From the NCBI GenBank assembly GCA_963924555.1, contig OZ004584.1, forward strand, positions 1,053,001 through 1,117,000: a stretch of DNA of 64,000 bases, in the 5' to 3' direction. The DNA comes from Crambe crambe. Its lineage: Eukaryota > Porifera > Demospongiae > Poecilosclerida > Crambeidae. Of the stretch, positions 19,236 through 59,244 are shown one piece after another. The notes beneath the pieces are model-generated. The model searched no databases, was not told the DNA's origin, and saw only the letters and a program-made list of their open reading frames with translations. Both the position numbers and the translations under genes were made by a program. The first letter of the stretch is position 1. Every line of letters starts with the position of its first letter.

Positions 19236-22200
19236 ATGAGTGAGAAGCATGTTGAAAGAGTCACATACAAACGGCTAAAAAGGTACTATGACAAAAGTCG
19301 TTCTTTCATTCTGCGCACACGCCAGATGGTAGTAAAGGGTTTTAAAAGAATCGGCACTGCTCTTGGAGTGAATGAAGACAAAAGTTATAAGAACATAGAA
19401 CACAGTCAGGACTGGGATGATTGTGTTGATGTTGAGAAATTGAATGCCATGAATGAGATGGATGGAACAGATAATGCTGGAGCTGACAATGAAAGGGATA
19501 AACTATTCTCTGTGGAAAGGAATGAACAATGGTCTGAATTTCTTAAGGCAAGCTTTGACGGACATGAGAAAAAGGTTGAAATGCTATTAGAACAAGATGA
19601 TAGTACAATTGAAGAGCAAGATGATAAAGGACGATCAGCATTAATGATAGCAAGCAGTTGTGGGCACACTAAAGTGATCAAGAGTCTGCTAAATAAAGGA
19701 GCCCAATTTGACTTGATGGATTATTATGGAGAGTCTGCCTTAATGATAGCAAGTCGGAAAGGTCACACTGAAGTGGTCAAACTGCTACTAGAAAAAGTTG
19801 CTCAAGTTGATCTACAGAATAATAATGGATTTTCTGCTTTGATAATAGCAAGTAAGAATGGTCACACTGAATTGGTCAAACTGCTACTAGAGAAAGATGC
19901 TCAAGTTAATATGCAGAACAATAATGAATGGTCTGCTTTAATGTTAGCAAGTCTAAATTGTAATATTGAAGTGGTCAAACTGCTACTAGAGAAAGGTGCT
20001 CAAGTCAATATGCAAGAATGCTATGGATGGTCTGCTTTAATGATAGCAAGTCTGAATGGTTACACTGAAGTGGTCAAACTGCTATTAGAGAAAGGTGCTC
20101 AAATTGACATGCAGAACAGTTATGGAAAGTGTGCTCTATATTTAGCAAGTCAGAATTGTCACACTGAAGTGGTCAAACTGCTACTAGAAAAAGATGCTCA
20201 AATCAATATGCAGACCATAGATGGATGGTCTGCTTTAATGTTAGCAAGTGAGAATGGTCACACTGAAGTGGTCAAGCTGCTACTAGAGAAAGATGCTCAA
20301 GTTGATATGCGGGAAAATGATGGATGGTCTGCTTTATTGATAGCAAGTGAGAATGGTCACACTGAAGTAGTCAAACTTCTACTAGACAAAGGTGCTCAAG
20401 TGAATATACAAAGAAATAATGGATGGTCAGCTTTAATGTTAGCAAGTCAGAATGGTCACACTGAAGTAGTCACACTATACTAGAGAAAGGAACTCAAGTT
20501 AATATACAGGGAAATGATGGATGGTCTGCTTTAATGTTAGCAAGTCTAAACTATTGCACTGAAGTGATCAAACTGCTACTAGAGAAAGGTGCTCAAGTTG
20601 ATATGCAGGAAAATGATGGATGGTCTGCTTTAATGTTAGCAAGTCAAAATGGTCACACTGAAGTGGTCAAACTGCTACTAGTAGAGAAAGGTGCTCAAGT
20701 CAATCTACAGAACAATAATGGATTTTCTGCTTTAATATTAGCAAGTAAGAATGGTCACACTGAAGTGGTCAAACTACTATTAGAGAAACGTGCTCAAGTG
20801 AATATTATAAGGAACAATAATGGATCATCTGCTCTACATTTAGCAAGTCAGAATGGTCACACTGATGTGATCAAACTGCTATTAGAGAAAGGTGCTCAAG
20901 TCGATATGCGGAAAAATAATGGATTTTCTGCTTTAATGATAGCAAGTCCATTGGGTCACACTGAAGTGGTCAAACTGTTACTAGAGAAAGGTGCTCAAGT
21001 TGATATGCAGGGTTATGATGGATGGTCTGCTTTAATGTTAGCAAGTCTAAAATACTGCACTGAAGTGGTCAAACTGCTACTAGAGAAAGGTGCTCAAGTT
21101 GATATGCAGAAAAATAATGGATCATCTGCTTTAATGTTAGCAAGTCAAAATGGTCACACTGAAGTGGTCAAACTACTACTAGAGAAAGGTGCTCAAGTCA
21201 TTATACAGAATAATAATGGATCATCTGCTTTAATGTTAGCAAGTCAGTATGGTTGCACTGAAGTGGTCAAACTGTTACTAGAGAAAGATGCTCAAGTCGA
21301 TATGCAGAACAATTATGGATTTTCTGCTTTAATGATAGCAAGTCTAAATAGTTGCACTGAAGTGGTCAAACTGCTACTAAAGAAAGGTGATAAAGTCAAT
21401 ATACAAAACAATAATGGAAGGTCTGCTTTAATGTTAGCAAGTCAGAATGGTCACACTGAAGTGGTCAAACTATTACTAGAGAAAGGTGCTCGAGTAGACA
21501 TACAGGAAAACGATGGATGGTCTGCTTTAATGATAGCAAGTGAAAATGGTCACATTGAAGTGGTCAAACTGCTACTAGAGAAAGGTTCTCAGATTGATAT
21601 GCAGGAAAATGATGGATGGTCTGCTTTAATTTTAGCAAGTCAGAATGGTCACATTGAAGTGGTCAAACTGCTACTAGAGAAAGGTTCTCAGTTTGATATC
21701 CAGGAAAATGATGGATGGTCTGCTTTAATGTTAGCAAGTCAAAATGGTCACACAGAAGTGGTGAAACTACTTCTAGAAAAAGGTGTTGAAGTTGATATGC
21801 AGAACAATAAAGGATTTTCAGCTTTAATGAAAGCAAGTCAGAATTGTCACACTAAAGTGGTCAAAATATTGTTAGAAAAAAGTGCTCAAGTTGATATGCA
21901 GAGCAATACTGGATTATCTTCTCTATATTTAGCAATTGAGAATGGTCACACTGAAGTGGTCAAACTGCTACTGGAGAAAGGTGCTCAAGCCAATGCGGTA
22001 GATAAAGATGGATCTGCATTAGTAGCAGCTATCAAAGGTCAGCACACTGAAACAATTAAACTTCTGTACCAACTTGGAGTCAACGTTAGCAGATGTAACA
22101 GTCAAGGAACTCCACTGTTAGAGTTAGCAGCCAATAATTTTTATGACATCATTCCAGTCGATCTGTGTGATGATGATGGGAAAACTGCCCTAATGTATGC

Positions 22201-24522
22201 TAGCTCCAATGGAAATCCAGATACTGTTTCCCAACTTCTGGAAAAAAATGCCCAAATCAACATGCAAGATAACAATGGCTGGTTTCCTCTGATGTATGCA
22301 GCACAAGCTGGAGATCCAGAAATTTGTGGTCTTCTCATAGCATATGGAGCTAATGTACACTTGACTGATTATGAAGGAGATACCATATTTGATGTCTGTT
22401 CTCATGAAGTCATCACTTTTTCACTTTTTCAAAATTTGGTACGTATGTTGTTTATAGATAATTATTAAATACAATTCTTCATCTATTTTCTGCCCATCTT
22501 ACAGTTACAGACTTTATTGGATGAAAAAAATGGTGATATTCGTAAGTATAGTTAATAGCTATACACATCATTCACATTATTTTATTTATGAACTTATATT
22601 AATTATAGGGATCGACTCCAACTACCCAGGAGTTCTCTTTTACCAAATATCTGTCTCAGAACACATTACATTAAAAGAAACCTTGATACATAAGCTAGAG
22701 GACCTGGGAATCTCTGTATTCATTCCTGTAAACTCACTGAGCATTGAAGAAGAATTTCTAGACCTTTCTGTTCATCCTTGCTTCAGTGGACCATTTGAGT
22801 TACCAGACGGCTATGAGTCAACAAGTCCAACTTATTTGATCACACACAGCAGGAGAGTGACATTCTCAAAGGATGTTACAGTCAGGATGCATCACTATGC
22901 TTGCTTGAAGAGTGAAGAGGATTGTGAGGACATGGCGTTCCTCTCAGCTAGCTCCACCCCTGTGTACAGGGAGTCCAGTCCAGCTGTCTACATCTTCAGA
23001 GAGATCCAGGGGGCCAAGGGAATATTCAAACCTGGAGATCAGGTGGGAGAAATATCACTGAGACACTTCTGCTTGTTAAAGATTGGCAAGAGGAAGAGAG
23101 AAGAAGATGAAGATGAAGTGGACGGTTCAGAAACCTCACCAAAACTTTCCAAAGGTAAATTAACCCTTGGATAGAGCCTTCAAAATAAATACCCTCTTTT
23201 GTGTGCAGGAGATGGATCATATTATTCTGCAAGGTTGTATCGTGACTTGAATCCTTCCCATGAGGCGTCTGCTGTGTTCTGCATGTGCTTATATCATCCT
23301 CTGTACATTCAAGTATGTTGCTATTGACTACGACTTTCCTTATATAATCTAGTATGTATGTATCACTCCATCTTTCAGCATTGTGATAGAAGAATAATGA
23401 AAGGACATGCTAGTATGGAAAAATGGGAAGGACACAGTGAAAAAATAGCCCAAATGATATCAGAAGAAGTGGTGATTGATGGAATATCAGATTCGATAAA
23501 AAACCTACAAAGGTACGAGCTTGATTTATCTAGAGCATGGCTCATGATTAATTTTTACTGCACAGATTCTAAAGAGAGAGATTCATCTCCCTGAACTATT
23601 AAGAATCAGGGTTTCATACCTTCTCGACTACCCTCCAAAGTTCATAGCTCACATCAAAGCAGCAACAGGCACTGCTTCTAATCCACCAGAACTGAAAGTT
23701 AGTGGATTGGATATTAGGGAAGTCTACTTTGAAACTCCCAGTAAGATACACCACCCATGATGATGCATGCTGTCCCCCCTGCATGATTCATGTCAACTAA
23801 TACAGCAGAGTCTCCATCTCAATCTGTGGATGATCAGTCAGGGGCCTCCCCTTCAGCTGCTGAACCAAAGAATGTGAGTATAAGACTGAACTTGTTCAAA
23901 GGTCATTGGATGTTAACATGGCCTATAGCTAGCTAGCTATTATAGTGAAACCCAGAGTGTGTGACCACAAGAGTTGAACTTGATCCTTTTATTGATATTA
24001 TAGGAATTTACTGAAGTCAGTCCTACAATTTTACCATCTTCAACTTTATCAACTATCGATGACACAGCATTAGGTAAGGGTATCATGATCATCTGTAAAC
24101 TGTGATTATTGTTCAATTCAGGGATTAGTGATTTGGGTGACGTGTTTGATGCAGTGGAAACTTTATCTGCCAAGTGGGAAGTACTTGCCACTAAACTACG
24201 CATTCAGCAACACACTGTTGAGGCCATCAAGAAGAACAACCCAGGGGACGTTGATGTCTGCCTCAATTTAATGTTGGGACAGTGGCTGAAGTTGAATTAT
24301 GACTATCGAAAGTATGGAAGGCCAAGCTGGAGGATTATGGCTAAGAGTGTGCAGAGAATGGATCCATGGCTGTTTGAAGAGATTGCCAGAGATCATTCCA
24401 TAGGTACTAGGTGAGAGAAATTAATGTGGCTCTGTAGCGAAGACATTGTTGATTTTTCATGCAGTTCAAGGTCACATGATGAGCTAAAGACTGAACACTG
24501 CATAGAAGAAACTTCAAAGTAG
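19236..24522 (+). CDS. Ankyrin array - ZU5 - Death domain protein (10 exons, one frameshift)
   Basis: Exons by my reading: 19236-22438, 22505-22541, 22609-23154, 23209-23312, 23379-23512, 23577-23740, 23806-23873, 24004-24073, 24122-24410, 24465-24522, with nine introns of 48-130 bp. The coding sum is 4673 nt, exactly one short of 1557 codons plus stop. The missing base is near 20470-20480, where the repeat consensus has lost one nucleotide. Domains: a basic N-terminal segment of about 100 residues, about 28 ankyrin repeats of 33 residues, a ZU5 domain (about 22,620-22,960), a stretch that may be a UPA domain, and a C-terminal Death domain (about 24,122-24,400, with AKWEVLATKLRI and the final DPWLFEEIA helix). 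This Ank-ZU5-Death order is known from signalling adaptors of sponges and other invertebrates. It is likely cytosolic, acting through Death-fold partners. It could be a recent pseudogene, or the frameshift could be a sequencing error. Confidence 0.8.
19620..22370 (+). repeat. 99-bp tandem array encoding ankyrin repeats
   Basis: About 28 units of 99 bp, many nearly identical at nucleotide level (GGATGGTCTGCTTTAATG, then GGTCACACTGAAGTGGTC, then GAGAAAGGTGCTCAAGT). Two units each carry one extra codon, near 20,680 and 20,810. Terminal units diverge while central ones are homogeneous, as expected from repeated unequal exchange. One unit lost a single base near 20,475. Confidence 0.9.
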
Positions 24523-35086: not shown

Positions 35087-38000
35087 TTATTTGTTGCTTG
35101 AAAGATATCTGCTTCTCTCATACACACGACTCTGATAATCAATAGGAGGAAAGTGGATCAACCTGTCGCTTGCTTCAATGGAGGGACTTCTTTCATCACC
35201 TACGGTCTCCTCTTCCAGCCTCTCATAATGCATGCTCTGAATGTCAAAGTCCCTGCGAAACCTTGAAAGGAACCTCTTCTTCACCCATTGAAATCCCGAA
35301 CACTTAAGATAAATGTGGAAAGCGAGGATTCCAAAAAAAGTTAGAAGAGCAACGCTCACTAGTAAATGACTTACAAAGACCGTCCCCCAAGTTTGTTCAG
35401 TATGCAAGACAACGAGAATAGTGAAGAGTAAGCCGATATTTAGTATAAAAGAACATTCCAAAACATTTAGGTACCAACTCTTGTATACTCCATTCAGACT
35501 TATCATAATAGCAGAAAGGACCAGGCAAATGGCAACATTGGTCAAAAATGGAAGAATAAGATTGTTGCTGTAAATAGCATGCACAAGAAGTAGGAATAAC
35601 CTTGTCAAAAGTAACAGACCAGTCCAGAATCTAGCCGAGTCCTTACAAGGGCCTGTGTAGGCATCAAAGAACGGCTTTAGCTTGTTGACCCACGAGAATA
35701 TTCTGCAGCAGTTAGAAAGGGAGAAGACGTGCCTGACACACAAGAGGGAGAGAGCAAATGGGAGAGTTAGGATCAAAAAGATAATAGCCATGATGATCAA
35801 GATGAGATGATCTTGAGGATTGAAGTATGGTACATTGCCATCAATGATCCATCTTAACTTATGGATTTTCGTGTTATTGACATGAACAGTGATAATTGCC
35901 TGGTTCAGGGTGCCTATCGTAACCCTGAGCATTTTTGAATAGGAAAGGAGTATCAAAGTGGCCAGGACTTTCACTGCATTCTGCCCAACTAATCTGGTTA
36001 TGGAGATGTACCGATTACTGAGGAAGATGATGACAGCAGATACCAGCCATATGTAGACAGGGAAAACTGCTTGAAGTGCAGTCTTCCCAAATGCTTGCAT
36101 TCCGTCATAGAAACAGGTGGGTATTCCTAAATCAAGGTTCAACCATGCTATGAAGATTTGAAGAACTTGAGAGAGAACTGGTACTGGATGTTCCTGTAAT
36201 AGGAGAACTGAGTAATCCTGGATCACATTTGCATAAAAGATCAAGCCACAGACTGTTCCTGTCGTGACTGTGAGGTTCAAGTAAGTAATGATGAAAACGA
36301 GAAATATGCCAGCTAGAGCAAAAGGAATGACTAGAAGCAACCACCAATTGGAACACTTTTCACGACATTCTGAAGTCCCAAATATCAAGCTGAACCCTTT
36401 ACGGCACGAACCACAAAGTAATCCATTTCGATTGTAACGACATTGTCGATCTTGATCAAGAGTTATATTTGTGGAATTGATTATAGTGACATTAGGATCA
36501 CAATAGTCCAAGGGACAATGTTTACTGGTAGCCAAATGGTCTTCGAACACACCTACCCAAGAACCATTATATTTTGTGATGGTTTTATTATCAATTGAAC
36601 ACTTCTCGATGATGCCGGAGAATTGATTACATTTGCAGGCAAATCTCACACTCTTTTTGTATTTTTTCCTGTGGTTGATGAATCCAAGTGGACAAGATTT
36701 GAATGTCACTTTTATAACGGCAGGTGAAAGTGGATGGATATACTCATATGTACTTGAGTCTGTTGCCAAGTCAACTTCAAGCCTGAGAGATCCAGTGCTT
36801 GTTTCATGAGAAAGAGAGAAGATGATGTAAGTCACATTACCGCCCATCTTGCTGTTTACTGTTTGTACTATTTGATCATTGTAAACGGCAGTTCCGTTTT
36901 GATCTGCTTTGACTGTCCCTGGGACTGATCCATTCAGTTGTCCCACCACTTGTACTTCAAAAACTTTCAATTCTCCTGGATAAATTGAGATAGATCTGTT
37001 CTTCCCACAAGTATTATTATCTTTGAAGCAAACATGTTGGGGATTTGATGATATTGATGATACAGTCATGGAATTATTGGGGATGTGCAATTGTTTCATG
37101 AAATTCTCAGAGTCACGTCTGATGTACAATAAGTAGCAGTAATCTATAGAACCCCCAAACAAATTCTCTCCAGCTTTTCCAGCATGATTATCACTTATGG
37201 TGACATTGACTGTTTTCCATTGTGTGTATTCAGTATACTGGTAAAAGCATATTGGGACATTAACGAGACACTTGGAGTTTACTAGAATACCTCCACCTGT
37301 GTCATTCGCACTGTTTTTTGTGATAACCAGTTCTGTGTGAGGCTTTAGGTACATCAAGGCTCCTGAACAAAATCGAATTCCTGCTCCACTCTGAGCAAAG
37401 TTTTTTGTGATAATCGATGATCCTGAGAAAACAAGAGTACTGTCAATTGCTAGTATTGCTGTGCAGTTATTGGAGGTAATGTCAATCCCTTGTATGGCCA
37501 AGTAAGGAACAGATTTGGCAAGAATAACACTACTCTCCGATGAAAGTAGTGGTGAGACTCTTGGAGAATGATTGAAAAAGCAACATTTCACAACATACAA
37601 GTTCACTCGAAACTTAGTCACCAAGTGAGGATTCCTTCCAGTGACAATATATGTTCTGTAATGCAGTGCCAATCCTCCATTTGCTTTGTGTCCAAGAGAG
37701 TTATTCACAAAGATGGAATTGTTAATGAATGCATCCAAGATATAGTGCAATCCATATTTTTCCTGCCACTGTATGACTATCCCACCACCAGAAAAAAACG
37801 CCACATTGTTACTGAAAGTCGAATTATAGATGCTGAATATTTTGGAACAGTTAGGGGGAATTGCTGGAAAATGGTAGAGGAAAACCATTTCGAATGATAC
37901 ATAAAGACCACCACCATACAGAGAAGAACCTCCATCAAAGGTGCTATTATGGATGATTACTTGAGGAATTGTACAGTTAGCTGGAATGCTGAACAGGAGT

Positions 38001-38824
38001 AGTCCCATGTTTCCTCCATTACACCCTTTATTTTTGGACAGGTGTGTACCAGAAATGTTAATTAACAATTTTGGGCTACCAGTAATCAGTACCAATCCTG
38101 CAGAATGAACAGTTGAGGTATTTTTGGAGCATGTTTTTTTGATATCGTATCCACTGCTGATGAAAGTACAGTTCTTAATAGTCAAATTTGAGTAGATGTC
38201 ATGGTCATATAGAACAACACTACCACCCATAGCAATGGAATCATTCTTTGTGAATGCTCTTTTGACTGTAACAGAATCCACTGTGATATCCCCTGCAACA
38301 TTGTAGATGTACAGTCCAGCTGCTTTTGCATCTGACACATTGACATAAGTGAGGGTGAGTTGTGATCCATTAATGAAAGACAGTGCTGATAAAACCTTCC
38401 GAGTGATTCCTTTAAAACTATTTCTGATGGTCCAGTTGCTCCCACAACCAATTAAGCGGAGACCTGACATGTTCAGGTTCACTATGTTCTCAAATATAAA
38501 GCCATTGTTGTCGTCAGGTGAGCAGTCAATCACCACTTCGGATCCACCATTGACCCTGAAAGTTACATTTTCAATGTTCTTCCACTTCCATATGCGTGTG
38601 AGGTTGTGATGGCCACTGAAGAATGTGACAGTGGTGTCAGACTTTGAATATTTGTCAGCTTCTTGAGAGAAAGTATCAATTGAGTATGTGTAGTTACAGT
38701 TACCAGGCAAGATATTTCGATCTTTCACTACACATAAATGAGTGCATTCAAAGCTTGAACAAGGTGAAAATATTGCTATTGCTAAGAATAGTAAGGCACA
38801 CTTGTAATTCAATGTCAACATCAT
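35087..38824 (-). CDS. Beta-helix ectodomain / polytopic membrane protein, copy A (intact)
   Basis: A single-exon gene of 1245 residues. The ATG at 38824 gives a hydrophobic signal peptide (LLFLAIAIFSPCSS). Residues 30-720 are a repetitive extracellular region with chlamydial-Pmp-like GGGI/GGGL and SNN/FxxN elements, many N-glycosylation sites, and short helices of beta type. A Cys-rich neck follows (about 720-825, with YNRNGLLCGSCRKGF). From about residue 825 to 1187 there are some nine membrane helices, with the marked motif LDLGIPTCFYDGMQAFGKT. A 58-residue cytoplasmic tail ends SSNK. The stop codon is embedded in AAATAAA, so the polyadenylation signal may overlap it. I know of uncharacterised animal proteins with similar membrane motifs but no assigned function. 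Copy D is very close along its whole length. Confidence 0.85.
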   Translation of the reverse strand: MMLTLNYKCALLFLAIAIFSPCSSFECTHLCVVKDRNILPGNCNYTYSIDTFSQEADKYSKSDTTVTFFSGHHNLTRIWKWKNIENVTFRVNGGSEVVIDCSPDDNNGFIFENIVNLNMSGLRLIGCGSNWTIRNSFKGITRKVLSALSFINGSQLTLTYVNVSDAKAAGLYIYNVAGDITVDSVTVKRAFTKNDSIAMGGSVVLYDHDIYSNLTIKNCTFISSGYDIKKTCSKNTSTVHSAGLVLITGSPKLLINISGTHLSKNKGCNGGNMGLLLFSIPANCTIPQVIIHNSTFDGGSSLYGGGLYVSFEMVFLYHFPAIPPNCSKIFSIYNSTFSNNVAFFSGGGIVIQWQEKYGLHYILDAFINNSIFVNNSLGHKANGGLALHYRTYIVTGRNPHLVTKFRVNLYVVKCCFFNHSPRVSPLLSSESSVILAKSVPYLAIQGIDITSNNCTAILAIDSTLVFSGSSIITKNFAQSGAGIRFCSGALMYLKPHTELVITKNSANDTGGGILVNSKCLVNVPICFYQYTEYTQWKTVNVTISDNHAGKAGENLFGGSIDYCYLLYIRRDSENFMKQLHIPNNSMTVSSISSNPQHVCFKDNNTCGKNRSISIYPGELKVFEVQVVGQLNGSVPGTVKADQNGTAVYNDQIVQTVNSKMGGNVTYIIFSLSHETSTGSLRLEVDLATDSSTYEYIHPLSPAVIKVTFKSCPLGFINHRKKYKKSVRFACKCNQFSGIIEKCSIDNKTITKYNGSWVGVFEDHLATSKHCPLDYCDPNVTIINSTNITLDQDRQCRYNRNGLLCGSCRKGFSLIFGTSECREKCSNWWLLLVIPFALAGIFLVFIITYLNLTVTTGTVCGLIFYANVIQDYSVLLLQEHPVPVLSQVLQIFIAWLNLDLGIPTCFYDGMQAFGKTALQAVFPVYIWLVSAVIIFLSNRYISITRLVGQNAVKVLATLILLSYSKMLRVTIGTLNQAIITVHVNNTKIHKLRWIIDGNVPYFNPQDHLILIIMAIIFLILTLPFALSLLCVRHVFSLSNCCRIFSWVNKLKPFFDAYTGPCKDSARFWTGLLLLTRLFLLLVHAIYSNNLILPFLTNVAICLVLSAIMISLNGVYKSWYLNVLECSFILNIGLLFTILVVLHTEQTWGTVFVSHLLVSVALLTFFGILAFHIYLKCSGFQWVKKRFLSRFRRDFDIQSMHYERLEEETVGDERSPSIEASDRLIHFPPIDYQSRVYERSRYLSSNK

Positions 38825-39240
38825 CAAATAGCTATGTTCTATGACTAGCTATTGCTCAGACTCATTCAGATATACTGTAGCAGGCTCTATAGTAGTTACG
38901 TAGCTATGATTGGTTAGTTTCCATAGTGAAACTGTTTTCATTACAAGTAGCTATTGGGAAAATCCATTGCATCATTATGGTGCATTCAAGTAGCGCTTAT
39001 AAACTGATCATGTAAAAATTGGGACAATAACACACTTTAGAGTGAACTCGTACATACATGTATAGCTAGCTATAGCAACAACAGAAATTTAAAATCAAAC
39101 AACATCCATAAAGATATATAGGGCACACGACTAACTATGTAAACCACACACATAATGTATCGTATGTATTCAATTCCTCATCCTCCTATAGCTGCTTTCT
39201 CTGTAGCTACATACGTATATAGTTATATGTCTGATATTAG

Positions 39241-46039: not shown

Positions 46040-46321
46040 TATAGCTACTCAGATTACTAGCTGATTTTCAGGCGCAAAATTTTTTCTCACACACACACAA
46101 ACAAAAAAATAACAACAACAAATAAACGAAAGGACCCGGCAGCTACAAATCTTGCAAAAATTTTTTTCTTCAAACAATTTTGCACGTACGTACGTGTGAA
46201 TTGAGACTTTCTGCACATGCGCAAAGTTTGAAGGATTCGATCGAGTGCGCATGCTTGCAAGCATGCGCAGATACAAGTCCGTTGCTATAGCTCTCTTTCG
46301 TGTCTGGGCTGTTGGACTTTC
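46040..46321. other. 5' flank of the Fanzor
   Basis: Differs from the surrounding array. Includes CACACACAAAC, ACGTACGTACGTG and a CATGCGC/GCGCATG-rich part (46,215-46,270) with an inverted pair GCGCATGCTTGCAAGCATGCGC. It may contain the element's left end and promoter, but I cannot set a boundary. Confidence 0.4.
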
Positions 46322-48152
46322 ATGTTGTGGAAAATGAGTTCCTCCAAAAGGCCTTCTACAGCCACAGAGTGCAACCCTAGTAAGAGAAGAAAGCCGAAAG
46401 AAGAACTGAAGTTCTGCACACTAAAGTGCAAGTTAAAGAGAATCACAAAGTCCAGCAATGTACTGTCCAGAGTGAAGGATGAAGTTGTTTTGGCCCATGA
46501 AGTCTTCAAGAGGACATTCTTCTTTATGAGACTATTCTTCTCGGAGAAAGGAGAGGTTCCTCTTTGATCGTTTCTGGAAGAAGAGTTTTATCGAAATATA
46601 TCCTGATCTCGTAGACTTCAAAGGAAGGAGCCTGATGAAGCAGCTTCTTGCACAGCAGATCCTTAGCAACATCCTGGTAGACACAAAGACGCACTTCAAG
46701 TCAAGATTCAGGACTTTTCTGGAGAGTCTGCTGAGAGATGGTGATTCTAATGGAAATCCCAAGTCAGAGGCATGTAAACTGACAGGGCAAGTCTTTGCAA
46801 ACCACTGGAATGACGTTCCTATAGAGAAAGCTGCGGGACATCTTGCCCGCCGATGTGGAGAGAAGTGTGGCTTACGACGTCACGAAGAACCCAGAGAAGT
46901 ACCTGAATGCAACGTTAAGCATGTGCCGGGAAATGGAACGAGTTCAAAATGCGAAGAAGAAGATACATTTCCTTCCCACGAGAACAAGCAATGTCCCCTG
47001 TCATGCTAAATTTGACACTGAAACCATGGCTCAAATGTTTGTCCCTTATAAAGAGAGAGTTGAAGCTAGAAAGTCAGCACTCCACAGAGAGGATTACAAC
47101 GACTGGGTCTGGACGAAGGTGATAGATCAGTCCCAAATGGTGTTCAGAAAACTGAAAGGCTTCAAGTTCCACCATGAGATTAGTACTGATGGAGTGGCGG
47201 TTTCTATCCTCTTCTCCAGAAGAGCAACTGGAAAACCTGCAAGACCAATGTCCACTGGGGTCCATGCTGCAGAAGAAGCAGAAGGGCCTAGATCCAAGGC
47301 AATCGGAGTGGATCCTGGGAGAAAAAACCTTATCACTGCAATGGATAGCGATGGAAACTCCCTTAGGTACACTTTGAGGCAGAGGCTGTTCGAGAGCAAG
47401 GAGACCAGACGCAGAGAGGCAAACGTGAGAAGAGAAGGAGTGAAATTTCTGAACTGGAAGTGCACCTGACCAAATACGAACGCCAAACCGTGGATCCTGC
47501 AAGATACAAGCAGTTCCTGGTGGAAAAGCGAAAGGTGGATGAACTCACCAGAGCCTTCTATCACAACGAGAAGTGGAGAGGGTGGAAGTTTCGGACATAC
47601 TGCCACAGAAAGAGTAGCGAAGACATGCTAGTCAACAGAATAATTGACACATACGGACCTCACTGCAAGATCTACTACAGGGACTGGTCCTCTATCCACC
47701 AACAGAAGGGATGCATGCCCGGACCCACAGTGGGACTCAGGAAGCTTCTGAGCAAGAGGTTAGAGACAGTGAGCGTAGACGAATTTCGAACCTCCAAGGT
47801 CTGCAACCGATGCTTTGGGGAGTTGACCAGATACAGAAACATAAGAGGAAGATTATCTCACTCCAGGCTAAAGTGCACAGACTGTCGATCTGGAAGCAAA
47901 CCTCTCTTTGTAGACAGAGACAGAAACGCAGCAGCCAACATTTTGCTGGCCGGAGAGTCTACAGAGAGACCACAGGCACTGTGTAGAAGTTGGAAAGAAG
48001 CATCTCCTTTCTCCAAAGCTCCACGAGAAGCTGGACTAAAAAGCTTTTTAGGAGAAAAGAGTGCACAATTGACTGAACCTCCAGGAGGAGCTGGTGGACT
48101 ATTTAGTGACCCAGTGTTTACTCAGGTAGACATGTATACTGCTGAAGCTTAG
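46322..48152 (+). pseudogene. Fanzor (eukaryotic TnpB-like RNA-guided nuclease), frameshifted
   Basis: Four overlapping frame segments form one protein of about 610 residues: 46322-46567, about 46,530-46,850, about 46,825-47,469, and about 47,367-48,152. Frame changes lie near 46,530-46,567, 46,822-46,850 and 47,400-47,440. Fanzors are TnpB/OrfB homologues that use an RNA guide to cut DNA. RuvC-I is GVDPGRKN (Asp codon 47311-47313). The zinc ribbon is CNRC (47802-47813) and CTDC (47874-47885), all four Cys intact. RuvC-III is DRDRNAAANI (Asp codon 47919-47921). The Glu sits in VDEFRTS just before the ribbon (47781-47783), while the classical RuvC-II place reads YYRDWSS. This is the rearranged active site described for Fanzors. 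The N-terminus has a basic KRRKPKEE stretch, possibly nuclear targeting. It is visibly richer in G+C than its surroundings, suggesting transfer or a different history. It is either a dead copy or the shifts are assembly errors; no TnpA is nearby. Confidence 0.85.
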
Positions 48153-48794
48153 CTTAACTTAGCTTTGGTAGTTTAAGGGTTAAAGAGAAACAGCAAAGTT
48201 CTTTGGAGGATTCCATAGAAACATCTATGATGTTACAATACAATGACCACTAATATGGCACTAAACATCGTTTTCTTGTTATTATTGTGTTATGTGAAGT
48301 GAGGGAGCATAAGAGGTGAAGTCCGGAGCATACATAATAGGGAGATTTGAAAAGCATTGCATAATAGAAAGCATGATACTTACTGTGTGGTTACAGTGTT
48401 TATACTACAGGAGGTGTCGTCAAGGACATACGTATGTGATAAGTGCCTGAGCCCTGACAGGCCAACTACAGCTTCTATCCTACAGCTAGCTAGTACTTAA
48501 ACTTGTCTGCTAACTCTTTGCTTCAATTCAATTTTGTTTTCTTAAAGTAAAAGTTATAATTGGGCTTTAATTAAATCGCAACTGCCTCTTCAATGTTCCT
48601 TGGCATCTGCACAGTCATCAGTGAATGATAATTGATTGACTGATGACAGGAGTATGATGGGATCTTGCAAGCATACAGCATAAGCAATAAAATAAGGGAA
48701 TGCCCAGAGATGCATGTAGCTATGCATTTTCTTTTCTTTTCTTAAATGCCTGGTTCACTTATGTTTCTCCTATAATACATCTCTTTCTTATTAT
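48153..48794. other. 3' flank of the Fanzor, possible guide-RNA or element end
   Basis: No gene. In TnpB and Fanzor loci the guide RNA usually overlaps or follows the 3' end of the nuclease gene, so this is where one would look. A 9-bp inverted repeat, GTCATCAGT (48614-48622) and ACTGATGAC (48639-48647), forms a hairpin with a 16-nt loop. Its role is unknown. Confidence 0.35.
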
Positions 48795-49957: not shown

Positions 49958-52900
49958 TTATTTGTTGCTTGAAAGACATCCGCTTCTCTCATACACACGA
50001 CTCTGATAATCAATAGGAGGAAAGTGGATCAACCTGTCGCTTGCTTCAGTGGAGGGACTTCTTTCATCACCTACAGTCTCCTCTTCCAGCCTCTCGTAAT
50101 GCATGCTCTGAATGTCAAAGTCCCTGTGAAACCTTAACAGGAACCTCTTCTTCACCCATTGAAATCCCGAGCACTTCTGATAAACATGGAAAGCGAGGAC
50201 TCCAAAAAAAGTGAGAAGAGCAGCACTTACTAGCAGATGACTTACAAAGACTGTCCCCCAAGTTTGTTCAGTATGCAAGACAGCAAGAATAGTGAAGAGT
50301 AAGCCGATATTTAGTATAAAAGAACATTCCAAAACATTTAGGTACCAACTCTTGTACACTCCATTCAGACTTATCATAATAGCAGAAAGGACCAGGCAAA
50401 TGGCAACATTGGTCAAAAATGGAGGAATAAGATCATTGCTGTAAATAACATGCACAAGAAGTAAGAATAACCTAGTCACAAGCAACAGACCAGTCCAGAA
50501 TCTAGCCGAGTCCTTGCAAGGGCCTGTGTAGGCATCGAAGAACGGCTTTAACTTGTTCACCCACGAGAATATTCTGCAGCAGTTAGAAAGGGAGAAGACG
50601 TGCCTGATACACAAGAGGGAGAGGGCAAACGGGAGAGTTAGGATCAAAAAGATAATTGCCATGATAATCAAGATGAGATGATCTTGAGGATTGAAGTATG
50701 GTACATTGCCATCAATGATCCATCTTAACTTATGGATTTTCGTGTTATTAACATGAACAGTGATAACTGCCTGGTTCAGGGTACCTATCGTAACCCTGAG
50801 CATTTTTGAATAGGAAAGGAGTATCAAAGTAGCCAGGACTTTCACTGCATTCTGCCCGACTAATCTGGTTATGGAGATGTACCGATTACTGAGGAAGATG
50901 ATGACAGCAGATATCAGCCATATGTAGACAGGGAAAACTGCTTGAAGTGCAGTCTTCCCAAATGCTTGCATTCCGTCATAGAAACAGGTGGGTATTCCTA
51001 AATCGAGGTTCAACCATGCTATGAAGATTTGAAGAACTCTAGAGAGAACTGGCACTGGGTGTTCCTGTAATAGGAGAACTGAGTAATCCTGGATCACATT
51101 TGCATAAAAGATCAAGCCACAGACTGTTCCTGTTGTGACTGTGAGGTTCAAGTAAGTAATGATGGAAACGAGGAATATGCCAGCTAGAGCAAAAGGAATG
51201 ACTAGAAGCAACCACCAGTTGGAACACTTTTCACGACATTCTGAAGTCCCAAATATCATGCTAAACCCTTTACGGCACGAACCACAAAGTAATCCATTTC
51301 GATTGTAACGACATTGTCTATCTTGATCAAGAGTTATGTTTGTGGAATTAATTATGGTGACATTAGAATTACAATAGTCCAAGGGACAATGTTTACTGGT
51401 AGCCAAATGCTCTTCAAACACACCTACCCAAGAACCACTATATTTTGTGATAGTTTTATTATCGATTGAACACTTCTTAATGATGCCGGAGAATTGATTA
51501 CACTTGCAGGCAAATTTTACAGTCTTTTTATATTTTATCCTGTGGTTGATGAATCCAAGTGGACAAGATTTAAATGTAACATTTATAAAAGCAGGTGAGA
51601 ATCGATGGGTGTACTCGTATGTACTTGAGTCAGTTGCCATGTCAACCTCAAGACTGAGAAATCCAGTGTTTATTTCGTGAGAAAGAGAGAAGATGCTGTA
51701 AGTCACATTACCGCCCATCTTGCTGTTTACTGTTTGTACTATTTGATCATTGTAAACGGTAGTTCTATTTAGATCTGCTTTCACTGTCCCTGGGACCGAT
51801 CCATTCAGTTGTCCCATCACTTGTACTTCAAAAACGTTCAATTCTCCTGGATAAATTAAGATGTGTCTGATCTTTCCACAAATATTATGACTATCTTTGA
51901 AGCAAACATGTTGGGGATTTGATGATATTGATGATACAGTCATGGAATTGTTGGGGATGTGCAATTGTTCCATGAAATTCTCAGAGTCACGTCTGATGTA
52001 CAATAAGTAGCAGTAATCTATAGAACCCCCGAACAAGTTGTCTCCAGCTTTTCCTGCACGATTTCCACTTATGGTGACATTGACTGTTTTCCATTGTGTG
52101 TATTCAGTATACTGGTAAAAGCATATTGGGACATTAACGAGACACTTGGAATTTACTAGAATACCTCCACCTGTGTCATTCGCACTGTTTTTTGTGATAA
52201 CCAGCTCTGTGTGAGGCTGTAGGTACATCAAGGCTCCTGAACAAAATCGAATTCCTGCTCCACTCTGAGCAAAGTTTTTTGTGATAATCGATGATCCTGA
52301 GAAAACAAGAGTACTGTCAATTGCTAGTATTGCTGTGCAGTTATTGGAGGTAATGTCAATCCCTTCTATGGCCAAGTAAGGAACAGATTTGGCAAGAATA
52401 ACACTACTCTCCGATGAAAGTAGTGGTGAGACTCTTGGAGAGTGGTTGGAAAAACAACATTTTATAACATACAAGTTCACTCGAAACTTGGTCACCAAGT
52501 GAGGATTTTTTCCATTCAGAATATATGTTCTGTAATACAGTGCCAATCCTCCATTTGCTCTGTTTCCAAGAGAGTTATTCACAAAGATGGAATTGTTAAT
52601 GAATGCATCCAAGATATAGTGCAATCCATATCTTTCATGCCACTGAATCATTATCCCACCACCAGTAAAATATGCCACATTGTTACTGAAAGTCGAGTTA
52701 TAGATGCTGAATATTTTTGTACAGTTAGGGGAAATTGCTGGGAAAGGGTAGAGGAAAACCATTTCGAATGATACATAAAGACCACCACCATACAAAGAAG
52801 AACCTCCATCAAAAGTGCTATTATGGATGATTACTTGAGGAATCGTACAGTTAGCTGGAATGCTGAACAGGAGTAATCCCATGTTTCCTCCATTACATCC

Positions 52901-53707
52901 TCTATTTTTGGACAGGTGCGTACCAGAAATGTTAATCAACGATCTCGGGCTACCAGTAATCAGTACCAATCCTGCAGAATGAACAATTGAGGCATTTTTG
53001 GAGCATTTTTCGTTGATATCATATCCACTGCTGATGAAATTAGAGTTCTTAATAGCCAAATACGAGTCAATATCATGGTCATATAGAACAACACTACCAC
53101 CCATAGCTAAGGAATCATTTTTTGTGATTGCTCTTTTGACGGTAATAGAATCCACTGTGATGTCCCCTGCAACATTGTAGATGTACAGTCCAGCTGCTTT
53201 TGCATCTGATACATTGACATAAGTGAGGGTGAGATGTGATCCGTTAATGAAAGACAATGCTGATAAAATCTTCCGAGTGACTCCTTTAAAACTGTTTCTA
53301 ATGGTCCAGTTACTCCCACAGCCAATTAAATGGAGACCTGACATGCTCAGGTTCACTACGTTCTCAAATATAAAGCCATTGCTGTCGTCAGGTGAGCAGT
53401 CAATCACTACTTCAGATCCACCATGGTTAACCCTGAAAGTTACATTTTCAATGTTCTTCCACTTCCATGTGTATGTGAGGTTGTGATGGCCACTGATGAA
53501 TGTGACAGTGGTATCAGACTTTGAATATTTGTCAGTTTCTTGAGAGAAAGTATCAATTGAGTATATGTAGTCACAGCTGCGATTCAAGACAGAGGAGCTA
53601 TTTTGATCTTCCTCTACACATAAATGAGTGTATTCATAGCTTGAACAAGATGAAAATATTACTATTGCTAAGAATAGTAGGGCACACTTGTACTTCGATG
53701 TTAACAT
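49958..53707 (-). CDS. Beta-helix ectodomain / polytopic membrane protein, copy D (intact)
   Basis: A single exon of 1249 residues from the ATG at 53707 (MLTSKYKC). The signal peptide is similar to copy A. Ectodomain, Cys neck, about nine helices and tail (VGDERSPSTEASDRLIHFPP) are all present and close to copy A, with scattered substitutions and a few indels, such as an extra residue in NHGGSE and the DSHNICGKIRH segment shared with B. It is therefore a recent duplicate of A, or kept similar by gene conversion. A plasma-membrane location is expected from the signal peptide. Function unknown. The stop again overlaps AAATAAA. Confidence 0.85.
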   Translation of the reverse strand: MLTSKYKCALLFLAIVIFSSCSSYEYTHLCVEEDQNSSSVLNRSCDYIYSIDTFSQETDKYSKSDTTVTFISGHHNLTYTWKWKNIENVTFRVNHGGSEVVIDCSPDDSNGFIFENVVNLSMSGLHLIGCGSNWTIRNSFKGVTRKILSALSFINGSHLTLTYVNVSDAKAAGLYIYNVAGDITVDSITVKRAITKNDSLAMGGSVVLYDHDIDSYLAIKNSNFISSGYDINEKCSKNASIVHSAGLVLITGSPRSLINISGTHLSKNRGCNGGNMGLLLFSIPANCTIPQVIIHNSTFDGGSSLYGGGLYVSFEMVFLYPFPAISPNCTKIFSIYNSTFSNNVAYFTGGGIMIQWHERYGLHYILDAFINNSIFVNNSLGNRANGGLALYYRTYILNGKNPHLVTKFRVNLYVIKCCFSNHSPRVSPLLSSESSVILAKSVPYLAIEGIDITSNNCTAILAIDSTLVFSGSSIITKNFAQSGAGIRFCSGALMYLQPHTELVITKNSANDTGGGILVNSKCLVNVPICFYQYTEYTQWKTVNVTISGNRAGKAGDNLFGGSIDYCYLLYIRRDSENFMEQLHIPNNSMTVSSISSNPQHVCFKDSHNICGKIRHILIYPGELNVFEVQVMGQLNGSVPGTVKADLNRTTVYNDQIVQTVNSKMGGNVTYSIFSLSHEINTGFLSLEVDMATDSSTYEYTHRFSPAFINVTFKSCPLGFINHRIKYKKTVKFACKCNQFSGIIKKCSIDNKTITKYSGSWVGVFEEHLATSKHCPLDYCNSNVTIINSTNITLDQDRQCRYNRNGLLCGSCRKGFSMIFGTSECREKCSNWWLLLVIPFALAGIFLVSIITYLNLTVTTGTVCGLIFYANVIQDYSVLLLQEHPVPVLSRVLQIFIAWLNLDLGIPTCFYDGMQAFGKTALQAVFPVYIWLISAVIIFLSNRYISITRLVGQNAVKVLATLILLSYSKMLRVTIGTLNQAVITVHVNNTKIHKLRWIIDGNVPYFNPQDHLILIIMAIIFLILTLPFALSLLCIRHVFSLSNCCRIFSWVNKLKPFFDAYTGPCKDSARFWTGLLLVTRLFLLLVHVIYSNDLIPPFLTNVAICLVLSAIMISLNGVYKSWYLNVLECSFILNIGLLFTILAVLHTEQTWGTVFVSHLLVSAALLTFFGVLAFHVYQKCSGFQWVKKRFLLRFHRDFDIQSMHYERLEEETVGDERSPSTEASDRLIHFPPIDYQSRVYERSGCLSSNK

Positions 53708-53929
53708 TATCAAATAGCTATGTTCTATGACTAGCTATTGCTCAGACTCATTCAGATATACTGTAGCTAGCTATAATAATTATTATATTGACTAACTCTA
53801 CTGATGTATTAGTTTTCCATAGTGAAACTGTGTTCATTGTAACCTAGTGATTGGTAAATCCATGGTATCATGATAACAGTAGTTTAAATAAACTGAGCAT
53901 ATCAAAATTGGGACAGAAATTAATTTGTC

Positions 53930-55108: not shown

Positions 55109-58100
55109 TTATTTGTTGCTTGAAAGACATCCGCTTCTCTCATACACATGGCTCTGATAATCAATAGGAGGAAAGTGGATCAACCTGTCGCTTGCTTCGG
55201 TGGAGGGACTTCTTTCATCACCTATGGTCTCCTCTCCCAGCCTCTCGTAATGCATGCTCTGAATGTCAAAGTCCCTGCGAAACTTAAACAGGAACCTCTT
55301 CTTCACCCAATGAAATCCCGAGCACTTCTGATAAATGTGGAAAGCGAGAATTCCAAAAAAAGTGAGAAGAGCAACGCTCACTAGTAAATGACTTACAAAG
55401 ACTGTCCCCCAAGTTTGTTCAGTTATTTTTATATGCACGATAACGAGAATAGTGAAGAGTAAGCCGATATTTAGAATAAAAGAACATTCCAAAACATTTA
55501 GGTATCGATTCTTGTACACTCCATTCAGACTTATCATAATAGCAGAAAGGACCAGGCAAATTGCAACATTGGTCAAAAATGGAAGAATATGATCGTTGCT
55601 GTAAATAGCATGCACAAGAAGTAGGAATAACCTAGTCACAAGTAACAGACCTGTCCAGAATCTAGCCGAGTCCTTGCAAGGGCCTGTGTAGGCATCAAAG
55701 AATGGCTTTAGCTTGTTCACCCATGAGAATATCCTGCAGCAGTTGGAGAGGGAGAAGACATGTCTGATACACAAGAGGGAGAGGGCAAATGGGAGAGTTA
55801 GGATCAAAAAGATAATTGCCATGATAATCAAGATGAGATGATCTTGAGGATTGAAGTATGGTACATTGCCATCAATGATCCATCTTAACTTACGGATTTT
55901 TGTGTTATTGACATGAACAGTGATAACTGCCTGGTTTAAGGTGCTTATTGCAACCCTGAGCATTTTTGAATAGGAAAGGAGTATCAAAGTGGCCAGGACT
56001 TTCACTGCATTCTGCCCGACTAATCTGGTTATGGAGATGTACCGATTACTGAGGAAGATGATGACAGCAGATATCAGCCATATGTAGACAGGGAAAACTG
56101 CTTGAAGTGCAATCTTCCCGAATGCTTGCATTCCATGATAGAAACAGGTGGGTATTCCTAAATCGAGGTTCAACCATGCTATGAAGATTTGAAGAACTCT
56201 AGAGAGAACTGGCACTGGATGTTCCTGTAATAGGAGAACTGAGTAATCTTGGATCACATTTGCATAAAAGATCAAGCCACAGACTGTTCCTGTTGTGACT
56301 GTGAGGTTCAAGTAAGTAATGATGAAAACGAGAAATATGCCAGCTAGAGCAAAAGGAATGACTAGAAGCAACCACCAATTGGAACAATTTTCACGACATT
56401 CTGAAGTCCTGAATATCAAGCTGAACCCTTTACGGCATGAACCACAGAGTAATCCAGTTCGATTGTAACTACACTGTTGGTCTTGATCAAGCATGGTATC
56501 AGTCGAGTTAATAGTAGTCACTTTTTGGTAACAGTAATCTAATGGACAAAGCCTGCTTGTAGTCAAGTATGGAGTACCATGGACTTCAAACATGCCTATC
56601 CAGGTAAAATCACGTTTAGTAACAGTGAATATTCCATCGGACATCGAACACTCCTTAATGATATTTGTCATACACTTGCACTGAAATATCGACTTTTCAT
56701 GCTCATAATTAGTATTTTGATTGGAGAAACCAAAAGGACAGTCTTTGAATGTAACTTTAATGATAGCAGGTTTGAAGCTGTTTATATACTCATGAGTACC
56801 AGAATCAGTTGCTAGGTCAACCCTGAGTAACAGTTTTCCAGTACCACTCGGACGGAAAATAGATGAATGGAATGTATAATTCACTTTACCACCCTTTTTG
56901 CTGTTTAAAGTTTGAACTGTTTGATCGTTGTAAATGACTACATCACCATTTTCTACTTTTGCTCTCACTGTCCCTGGAACTGATCCATTCAGTTGGCCGA
57001 CCACTTTAACTTCAAAATGTTTTGTTTCTCCAGGATAGACTGTTATATTTTTGTTCTTTTCACACAATATGGCATGATCTTTGAAGCACACATGTTGGGG
57101 ATTGGATGAAATGGAAGATTCATTATAGTCATTTTTGGGAATGTTTAGTAACTCAGAAGGGTCTATGTCTTCATATCTGATGAAGAATAGGTAGCAGTCA
57201 TCAATAGAACCACCAAACAAATTATCCCCTGCTCTCTGCGCTGTATTATCATATATGGTAACATTAACTGTGTTTCGAAGCGTATAGTTTGTATATTGGA
57301 AGAAACACATTGGAATAGTCACTAGGCATTTGGAGTTCACTAAAATACCACCACCATTACCATGATAAGCACGATTGTCAGTAATAATCAATTCAGTATG
57401 AGGAGTTAGATACATCAGTGATCCCGAGCAAAGCCGGATACCTGCTCCACTCCGAGCAATATTATTGGAAATTTCAGATGATCCATAGAAGTAAAGGGTG
57501 GTGTCGATAGCCAGAAGAGCTGTGCAATTGTTTGAAGTAATGTTAATCCCATCTATAGCCAAGTAGGGGGCAGATTTGGCATGAATTACACTGGTTGCAG
57601 ATAAAAATTTGCCCTTTCGACTTGAATGATGGATGAAGTGACAATTTGAAATGTACAGATTCACATGAAACTTAATTAAGTCGTAATGTCCACTCCCAGA
57701 TAAAATATATGTCTTGTAATCCAATGCCACTCCCCCACTGTGTCCGATGTGGTTATTTTCAAACTTCGAATCAACAATGGTTGCATCTAGGATCTTATTC
57801 AACCTTGTTTGATTCCATTGAATTGAAATGCCACCACCATATGCTGCTGCAGTATTATATTTGAAAGTTGAATTCTTAATGAGGAGTGCCTTATAAGGTT
57901 GCCTTATTTGATTGTGGTGGAAAGATTTAACTGTTGGTGTAAAGGATACAAACAGCCCCCCTCCAAAGATGGCAGCACCATTCTCGAAAGTGCTGTTTCG
58001 AATGGCCACCATTGGCTCTCTGTAATTCACTGGAATACTGAAGAATAGTAGTGCCATATTCCCTCCATTGCATCCAAAGTTGTGAGACAAGTTCATGCCA

Positions 58101-58912
58101 GAAATGTCTACCAATAAGTAAGCACTTCCAACTACTACTACCACTCCTGCAGTGTAATACATAGACTCAGCTGAACTATTATTTCTTTCACATCGGTATT
58201 TCAATGGTCTTTGATACTCAAATGTAGACTTCCTGATAGCAATGCTGGTAGGCACAGTGTGATTCCTGTCATACGCAATTAAGTTACTACTGGTAGGACC
58301 TTTTCCCCCAGATATTGACTGAGTATTTGTAACTTTACAGATGTCTATCGTTATATTTCCTGCAACATTGTAGATGTACAGTCCAGCGGCTTTTGCGTCC
58401 GATATGTTGATATTGGTTAGGGTGAGATGTGATCCTTTCGTGAAGAGTAGTGCAGATGAAGCATTTGGAGTAAGTCCTTTAAAAGTCTCTCCAACAGTCT
58501 GGGTGTTACCACAACCAATTAAGTGAAAATCTGATATGCTCAGCTTTGATACATTCTCAAACACAAAGCCATTGTTGTCATGGGGAGAGCAGTCAATCAC
58601 CACTTCAAATCCACCATTGGCCCTGAAAATTACATCCTCCACATTTCTCCACTTCCATGTGTGGGTGAGGTTGTGATTACGCCCAAAGAATGTGACAGTG
58701 GTGTCAGACTTTGAGTACTTATCAGCTTCTTGAGAGAAAGTGTTGATGGAGTGGGTGTAGTCACAGCTGCTGACAGTGCTGAATGGAAGAGCAGGAAATG
58801 GGCTACTTCCATTTCCCACCACTACACAGAGGTGAGTAGCTTCACAGGATACGAAACTCATCAAAAGAGGAATTGTCCAAAAGGAATTCAAATTTGAATT
58901 AGTCACCTTCAT
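55109..58912 (-). CDS. Beta-helix ectodomain / polytopic membrane protein, copy F (intact, diverged ectodomain)
   Basis: A single exon of 1267 residues. The start ATG at 58912 is followed by a signal-like segment (IPLLMSFVSC). The ectodomain is clearly homologous to A and D but much diverged, especially in the middle third (about 57,600-58,350), with its own indels. From the YNRTGLLCGSC neck onward it is almost the same as A and D, apart from a few changes such as FYHGMQAFGKI and the HIKITEQTW insertion. The sharp change in similarity at the neck suggests that the membrane half is homogenised or exchanged while ectodomains diversify. Role unknown; a receptor or transport-linked sensor are both possible. 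Confidence 0.85.
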   Translation of the reverse strand: MKVTNSNLNSFWTIPLLMSFVSCEATHLCVVVGNGSSPFPALPFSTVSSCDYTHSINTFSQEADKYSKSDTTVTFFGRNHNLTHTWKWRNVEDVIFRANGGFEVVIDCSPHDNNGFVFENVSKLSISDFHLIGCGNTQTVGETFKGLTPNASSALLFTKGSHLTLTNINISDAKAAGLYIYNVAGNITIDICKVTNTQSISGGKGPTSSNLIAYDRNHTVPTSIAIRKSTFEYQRPLKYRCERNNSSAESMYYTAGVVVVVGSAYLLVDISGMNLSHNFGCNGGNMALLFFSIPVNYREPMVAIRNSTFENGAAIFGGGLFVSFTPTVKSFHHNQIRQPYKALLIKNSTFKYNTAAAYGGGISIQWNQTRLNKILDATIVDSKFENNHIGHSGGVALDYKTYILSGSGHYDLIKFHVNLYISNCHFIHHSSRKGKFLSATSVIHAKSAPYLAIDGINITSNNCTALLAIDTTLYFYGSSEISNNIARSGAGIRLCSGSLMYLTPHTELIITDNRAYHGNGGGILVNSKCLVTIPMCFFQYTNYTLRNTVNVTIYDNTAQRAGDNLFGGSIDDCYLFFIRYEDIDPSELLNIPKNDYNESSISSNPQHVCFKDHAILCEKNKNITVYPGETKHFEVKVVGQLNGSVPGTVRAKVENGDVVIYNDQTVQTLNSKKGGKVNYTFHSSIFRPSGTGKLLLRVDLATDSGTHEYINSFKPAIIKVTFKDCPFGFSNQNTNYEHEKSIFQCKCMTNIIKECSMSDGIFTVTKRDFTWIGMFEVHGTPYLTTSRLCPLDYCYQKVTTINSTDTMLDQDQQCSYNRTGLLCGSCRKGFSLIFRTSECRENCSNWWLLLVIPFALAGIFLVFIITYLNLTVTTGTVCGLIFYANVIQDYSVLLLQEHPVPVLSRVLQIFIAWLNLDLGIPTCFYHGMQAFGKIALQAVFPVYIWLISAVIIFLSNRYISITRLVGQNAVKVLATLILLSYSKMLRVAISTLNQAVITVHVNNTKIRKLRWIIDGNVPYFNPQDHLILIIMAIIFLILTLPFALSLLCIRHVFSLSNCCRIFSWVNKLKPFFDAYTGPCKDSARFWTGLLLVTRLFLLLVHAIYSNDHILPFLTNVAICLVLSAIMISLNGVYKNRYLNVLECSFILNIGLLFTILVIVHIKITEQTWGTVFVSHLLVSVALLTFFGILAFHIYQKCSGFHWVKKRFLFKFRRDFDIQSMHYERLGEETIGDERSPSTEASDRLIHFPPIDYQSHVYERSGCLSSNK

Positions 58913-59244
58913 CCTGCACAGCTCTGGCTCTCGAGTTATATGTAGCTAACTAATAGTCCTCCACTTATCCTTCAGTGTTTTATAGAAATTGTTGTTTAGC
59001 CTGTTTAGCTACATCATCACCCAGCTAGTTATTGGAAGTGGACATCCATTAGTTGTTAAAAATTAATGTTGAAAATGTTGACCTTCATTTTCAATACACG
59101 CATTACATCTACACTCAGACTCCGTGGTATCAACTTGTAGCTAAGTGCCCCATCATGATGTTATGTTATAGGTGAATAGAAAGATATAATTCACTTTTAA
59201 TACCACCTTCTTCTTTTTTTCCTTTTTAGAGTTTGAACAGATTG

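Follow-up and report, generated by a model that had tools for sequence, protein, structure and literature searches.

What is the broken coding region at positions 46322..48152 (+ strand) of the window, by which we mean the whole 64,000-nucleotide stretch of the genome of the sponge Crambe crambe that was analysed, and how did it come to lie there? The preliminary description of this DNA took it for the relic of a Fanzor nuclease with a rearranged RuvC site. Fanzors are related to CRISPR enzymes. Their biological function in eukaryotes is described as little known (PMC10711439). The listing of metazoan Fanzors in PMC3627910 names Hessian fly and Hydra only, and our literature search found no paper on a sponge Fanzor; one article (PMC10820777) contains both 'Fanzor' and 'Amphimedon'.

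The identity of the gene follows from its translation. Four overlapping open stretches (46232–46567, 46530–47009, 46825–47469 and 47367–48152) make up the coding region, in agreement with the three frame changes first described. A check of the codons in the + strand translations found GVDPGRKN, YYRDWSS, VDEFRTS, CNRC, CTDC and RDRNAAANI in the order given for them; GVDPG, VDEFRTS, the two cysteine pairs and RDRN are spread over two frames. The PDB matches at E ≤ 0.01 were SpuFz1 (6.7e-24), PpFz1 (2e-19) and GtFz1 (5e-18), and nothing else. Stretches 46825–47469 and 47367–48152, searched separately, each matched SpuFz1 with E = 1.2e-8, followed by PpFz1 and GtFz1; the other chains listed had E values from 0.31 to 0.62. 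No Fanzor2 or TnpB chain came under E ≤ 0.01. The C4 zinc ribbon CNRC...CTDC (47802..47885, +) scores 28.6 bits against the Cas12f1-like TNB domain (Pfam PF07282), above the cut-off of 26.3, and OrfB_IS605 stayed below threshold in the window protein (15.6 bits, cut-off 30.5). Since two stretches hit SpuFz1 separately and the zinc ribbon passes the Pfam cut-off, the Fanzor match is not due to chance. The first two stretches alone gave no Pfam match above the cut-off, and their position was assigned through sibling copies.

The Asp of GVDPG (RuvC-I, codon 47311..47313, +) and the Glu of VDEFRTS (codon 47781..47783, +) align at the same offset, 394, with the catalytic residues D383 and E541 of SpuFz1, as numbered in PMC10432273. 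It follows that the acting RuvC-II glutamate is the displaced Fanzor one beside the zinc ribbon, as had been claimed, and that none acts in YYRDWSS, which reads YYGDWSS in the sibling copies. The RuvC-III Asp (RDRN, codon 47919..47921, +) is assigned by its motif, the structural alignments ending upstream of it. The TDG motif named for the Fanzor1 WED domain (PMC10711439) is present as EISTDGVAVSI in the window and in an intact sibling, and is absent from the frame of copy L011. The intact sibling also fits the published Fanzor1 pattern D-X(125,275)-[TS]-[TS]-X-X-[C4 zinc finger]-X(5,50)-RD (PMC3627910), its GVDPG, VDEFRTS, CNRC, CTNC and RDRN starting at residues 362, 520, 529, 553 and 567.

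That sibling came from a search of the genome (143 Mb, 119 contigs). Wnt-family genes, which are specific to animals, gave 14 matches in this genome and none in 14 control genomes, as expected of an animal. The C-terminal stretch as query gave 37 matches; the unbroken sibling protein gave 74 match pieces, which we grouped into about 28 Fanzor loci. The window and 20 other loci were examined as DNA, plus the left tip of one more, and nine copies (the window, L009–L013 and L015–L017) form a close family by DNA. One of these, L009 on contig C19 (the same site as L002), has an unbroken frame of ∼ 644 aa, so that an unbroken relative, as hoped for, does exist elsewhere in the genome; in L011 the frame extends over 550 aa and is interrupted at both ends. 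A single scan of viral contigs found no relatives. The frame changes of the window copy are deletions relative to the unbroken sibling. Introns in place of the frame breaks were rejected, because the sibling reads through in a single frame. The suggestion that inactivation might be only apparent is not supported, since the sibling shows the frames to be disrupted and the transposon has lost its left end. That inactivation is recent holds in a relative sense only, with dS of 0.064 between window and sibling; of the codon changes found in the window alone, 12 are synonymous and 15 non-synonymous. The window copy of Fanzor1 is dead, through frame-shifting deletions and the loss of its left end.

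Between copies the protein carries a different signature. Against L009, dN/dS is 0.26 for the window (24 synonymous, 23 non-synonymous changes), 0.19 for L010, 0.24 for L011 and 0.35 for L012, and the more diverged L021 gives 0.23, at dS > 1. Values of 0.19–0.35 indicate that the Fanzor1 protein was under selection during much of the history separating the copies.

How such a gene is carried can be read from the limits of its copies. The element ends in CCCTAGAACTAC on the left and GGTAGTTTAAGGG on the right, both adjoining TTAA. The window copy spans 46130..48183 (+), its left limit being approximate and set by the limit of sibling homology, and its right end exact; the interval 46322..48152 originally given describes the coding region correctly, and the whole element is larger. 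Its right terminal inverted repeat GGTAGTTTAAGGG lies at 48167..48179 (+), as located by sibling comparison and by the genome-wide end pattern, and sibling comparison also places the TTAA target site at 48180..48183 (+). The left inverted repeat is missing, and the copy starts with GGACCC (46132..46137, +), which is the inner arm of the hairpin at the left end; L011 and L012 start there too. On the right, the nine close copies and L021 all read AGGG and then TTAA, beyond which their sequences differ. Right ends are intact in nine of the nine close copies, left ends in two (L009 and L010). TTAA stands outside both ends in L009 and L010, and on the right side only in the window. The exact end pattern TTAACCCTWRAACTAC occurs 21 times in the genome versus once for the reversed control, 4 times in the left form TTAACCCTAGAACTAC and 17 times in the right form; the two forms are distinct. 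A Fanzor copy with ∼ 43% protein identity (C20:440851) has one of the left forms next to it. A loose search for left ends upstream of diverged copies, covering 12 loci, gave a candidate in L025 alone, a left form with two mismatches. When three mismatches are allowed, TTAACCCTWRAACTAC is not enriched over its control (54 versus 78). Such ends belong to a TTAA-flanked DNA transposon with CCCT...AGGG inverted termini.

Two further pieces of this family were seen. One, ∼ 180 bp long (L042:1340-1524), keeps its right end intact while the left end has decayed, and resembles a MITE-like Fanzor element shortened by internal deletion. The other is a solitary left end at C19:2399521-2399544 (L030), where GGGTCC and GGACCC form a perfect hairpin; the 3 kb examined behind it contained no Fanzor gene.

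Which transposase could move such an element? The genome contains 62 matches to the piggyBac transposase family PF13843, eight of them spanning the full 349 positions, and none of the 62 lies within 200 kb of the 28 Fanzor loci. A pattern related to the Fanzor ends, TGGTAGGYAAAGGGTTAA, has 226 genome hits versus 21 in the control. At least 12 of the 226, in a comparison by eye of the 100 hits listed with the 62 PF13843 matches, fall within 3 kb of a transposase match. Three transposase-adjacent end sequences read TTAACCCTTTGCCTACCAAAAGC, where the Fanzor element has TTAACCCTTAAACTACCAAAGC. The end sequences around several of the resident transposases listed are in direct, not inverted, orientation; as they point the same way on both sides of the transposase, they are not a plain inverted pair. 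On contig C3, piggyBac-linked ends at 3509831, 3514166 and 3518501 are likewise direct and recur at intervals of exactly 4335 bases, each unit containing a transposase; this may be a tandem multimer or, as in the published description of KolobokP, a case of long terminal direct repeats. The Fanzor element shares with piggyBac transposons TTAA, ends that begin with CCC and an end sequence similar to that near resident transposases, but differs in having no transposase inside or nearby. Because it lacks a transposase, we do not file it as piggyBac and speak only of piggyBac-like ends, with a resident piggyBac-type transposase as the likely helper in trans. Against such a helper speak the distance of over 200 kb, the direct orientation of the resident end sequences and the lack of enrichment of TTAACCCTWRAACTAC at three mismatches. 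Kolobok was rejected: the published rule for its termini is 5'-RR...YY-3' with TTAA (PMC9587614), and the termini here are CCC...GGG.

The right end of the element also holds a candidate guide RNA (reRNA, omegaRNA). The last 65–85 nt are predicted to fold as an outer helix, UGACCC/GGGUUA, around two hairpins; the terminal GGG and the target TTAA take part in this helix. By folding and covariation, the putative scaffold occupies 48107..48183 (+), overlapping the end of the coding region, with the outer helix formed by 48107-48112 and 48177-48182 and the hairpins at 48114-48133 and 48135-48175. When eight copies were folded singly over 100 nt, the outer helix appeared in six (L012, L021, L014, L026, L042 and L024, in L024 one pair shorter); in L009 and L045 the bases paired differently and the helix was absent. 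Several z-scores of these folds, which range from −0.64 to −2.93, are weak. Folds over 88 nt gave the three-stem form in the window (z = −2.90), L010 (−2.96) and L016 (−2.30); L022 kept the outer helix with z of just −0.49, and L018 and L028 were without it.

In 12 aligned copies, 95.0% of the cells are paired versus 18.8–55.4% when the structure is slid along the alignment. Four pairs show changes on both sides, a number reached by 2 of 500 shuffles, and the covariation score was equalled by none of 500; the count of further pair types was unremarkable, being reached by 300 of 500 shuffles. A covariance model was trained on 10 copies and matched 21 times across 30 sequences. Outside the training set it found L018 (3.6e-6), L022 (0.028) and L028 (0.12), at or behind Fanzor coding sequence, the match in L018 not being independent because L018 is nearly identical to L014 there; the model also matched the untrained fragments L051, L046 and L043. 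The motif T[GA]AC[CT][CA], picked after the sequences had been inspected, precedes the end by 65–85 nt in 18 of 18 family right ends (among them the short fragments L042 and L045) and is absent from all 6 other right-end-like sites, although two of these six, L046 and L051, appear to be family fragments truncated within the RNA. Genome-wide, a two-part RNA pattern gave 14 hits, 13 of them at known Fanzor copies, with none in the control. The sole hit elsewhere, C8:1965028-1965098, may be chance or a decayed copy. Rfam recognized no known RNA in the window at the gathering threshold.

Published Fanzor1 reRNAs are described as three-stem structures that include the terminal inverted repeat and the target site duplication and extend ∼ 15 nt past the latter (PMC10711439). 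With that layout, the guide here would begin directly after TTAA, and we mark the right flank at 48184..48200 (+) as the candidate guide sequence, its length following the published ∼ 15 nt. The target-adjacent motif reported for GtFz1 is TTAA (PMC10432273, PMC11423790); here, TTAA would be the target-adjacent motif in the empty site. The predicted right-end RNA thus has the published Fanzor1 guide-RNA architecture, and judged from their sequences the window protein and the candidate RNA belong to Fanzor1 by every feature examined.

We next consider the DNA on either side of the copies. In the window, the Fanzor copy is located between two genes of a tandem array (35087-58945) of − strand, single-frame genes of ∼ 1250 aa (35087-38848, 49958-53734 and 55109-58945), with broken gene fragments between its members; Pfam gave no match for the one array gene scanned. 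Farther off, two adjacent ORFs at 19218-22465 are built of many ankyrin repeats. An empty site for the window copy was sought inside the window and rejected, the left flank matching the tandem gene copies and the right flank matching itself only.

Four of the nine close copies have a short stretch of the right flank repeated on the left. L012 has the 13 bases TTAAATCACACAA behind its right end and again, exactly, in front of the left junction. L017 has 16 bases, TTAAGGTACTATGCAT, duplicated exactly with a local inversion in between; L010 has an exact duplication of 14 bp, an ambiguous case in a repeat-rich flank, and L011 one of 13 bp in which a single base differs. Each of the four begins exactly at TTAA and reaches 9–12 nt beyond it. 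In exact-match controls, random pieces did as well in 1 of 3000 cases for L012, 0 for L017, 3 for L010 and 128 for L011; in mismatch-tolerant controls, none of 200 equalled L010, L011 or L012. Among 72 cross-pairings of unrelated flanks the best match was 10 bases (L010 left with L009 right). No flank duplication was found in the other five close copies (the window, L009, L013, L015 and L016), nor in six more distant copies.

Could ordinary decay have produced all this? Full-length insertions would then have lost their left parts by unrelated deletions, and the duplications would be chance matches or older repeats. The five close and six distant copies without a duplication fit such a history, as do the repeat-rich flank of L010, where the duplication may be an older tandem repeat predating the insertion, and the unremarkable exact match of L011. 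However, the control counts for L012 and L017, and the mismatch-tolerant controls for L010–L012, are hard to square with it, all four duplications begin precisely at TTAA, and the losses are confined to the left end. We regard decay alone as unlikely.

Truncation of one end together with duplications of this length also recalls retrotransposition, and the main rival to our own reading is that the truncated copies are retrocopies of a Fanzor transcript made by a LINE, like the retro-DNAs of primates. These are described as having no terminal inverted repeats, longer target site duplications, TT/AAAA sites and 5' truncation (PMC11195612). The LINE-like features here are the duplications of 13–16 bp starting with TTAA(A), the 5' truncation and the 5' start base that the window, L011 and L012 have in common, for which a shared transcript start is at least as good an explanation; nine of ten right flanks continue as TTAAA. 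Set against the retro-DNA pattern of absent inverted repeats and duplications of ≥ 8 bp, L011, L012 and L017 give a mixed picture: the left repeat is missing, the right one is intact, and the duplications measure 13, 13 and 16 bp. There is no poly(A) tail behind the right end in the four duplicated copies, but this argues only weakly against retrocopying because a tail occurs in only 23.5% of the retro-DNAs described (PMC11195612). Nine of nine close copies stop at the exact right end of the transposon, by TTAA, where a transcript need not end, and L010 has a second copy of its left flank beside an intact left repeat. Retrocopying is, in our judgement, improbable.

A third reading takes the element for a rolling-circle transposon of the Helitron2 type, as was argued for the Fanzor-bearing elements CRe-1, 2 and 3 of Chlamydomonas, which have the same pattern of truncation and duplication and a 3' end that is nearly always intact (PMC3627910). 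In Helitron2, the 3' inverted repeat is described as lying 20–30 bp inside the 3' end, upstream of a hairpin (PMC3627910). The repeats here are fully terminal at both very ends, adjoining TTAA, and on this ground Helitron2 was rejected as the transposon type; we give it hardly any weight.

We favour instead, with reasonable confidence, an explanation in which the window copy is a dead, left-truncated member of a family of TTAA-flanked transposons that encode no transposase, carry Fanzor1 and a candidate guide scaffold at the right end, and would be mobilized in trans and maintained by homing repair. A resident piggyBac-type transposase would move the Fanzor element in trans. Fanzor, loaded with the right-end RNA and using the right flank as guide, would then cut the element-less allele or sister just past TTAA, and repair of the cut would copy the element back in. 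With less assurance, we suggest that the 5'-truncated copies with duplications of 13–16 bp starting with TTAA arose where this repair stopped early: copying would start at the right end of the element-bearing allele, halt, and the product be joined to the broken left end. Halted right-to-left copying would also account for the one-sided loss of ends (nine of nine right, two of nine left ends intact). Published cuts lie after base 14–17 for GtFz1 and at 9–14, on one strand only, for MmeFz2 (PMC10432273). Because these are farther out than the 9–12 nt observed here, trimming of the ends must be assumed. We only tentatively interpret the flank duplications as scars left when the empty site was cut under RNA guidance and copying was then aborted; that they are natural footprints of Fanzor homing in an animal, left by one-sided and often halted repair, is a possibility we entertain with more doubt than belief.

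Like the Fanzor1 nucleases SpuFz1, GtFz1 and PpFz1, the protein of the sponge element has the RuvC Asp, the displaced Glu, the C4 zinc ribbon and the TDG motif, and the predicted right-end RNA of the element has three stems that include the terminal inverted repeat and target site; unlike them, the protein is found in an animal host, measures ∼ 644 aa, and in the window is left-truncated and frame-broken. By description, the sponge element resembles the Fanzor1 elements of insect viruses (such as SfAV), which are Fanzor-only, with inverted repeats, a short T-rich target duplication and an reRNA scaffold that includes both (PMC3627910, PMC10711439); their duplications are given as TTAN and their inverted repeats as 13 bp, and they were left without a transposon superfamily. 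The Chlamydomonas elements CRe-1, 2 and 3 share with it 5' truncation, an intact 3' end and duplications of 7–19 bp beside a T-rich tetranucleotide, but were assigned to Helitron2 and have a multi-exon gene and other termini (PMC3627910).

A functional parallel is offered by the TnpB proteins. TnpB of bacterial insertion sequences retains its element by RNA-guided cutting of the empty site. By analogy, Fanzor probably works alike, although its Glu is displaced, its host is a eukaryote and it is carried by another type of transposon.

This is a known family, Fanzor1, in a new host, and the possible scars are its interesting part. Compared with the literature cited, it adds a type with TTAA-flanked, piggyBac-like ends to the kinds of transposon that harbour Fanzor1. 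If our reading of the duplications is true, homing scars would also explain the duplications of the Chlamydomonas Fanzor elements, and Fanzor would be an RNA-guided homing nuclease that aids the persistence of its transposon. An animal genome with an unbroken Fanzor1, a well-defined predicted RNA scaffold, TTAA ends and possible scars makes the role of Fanzor directly testable.
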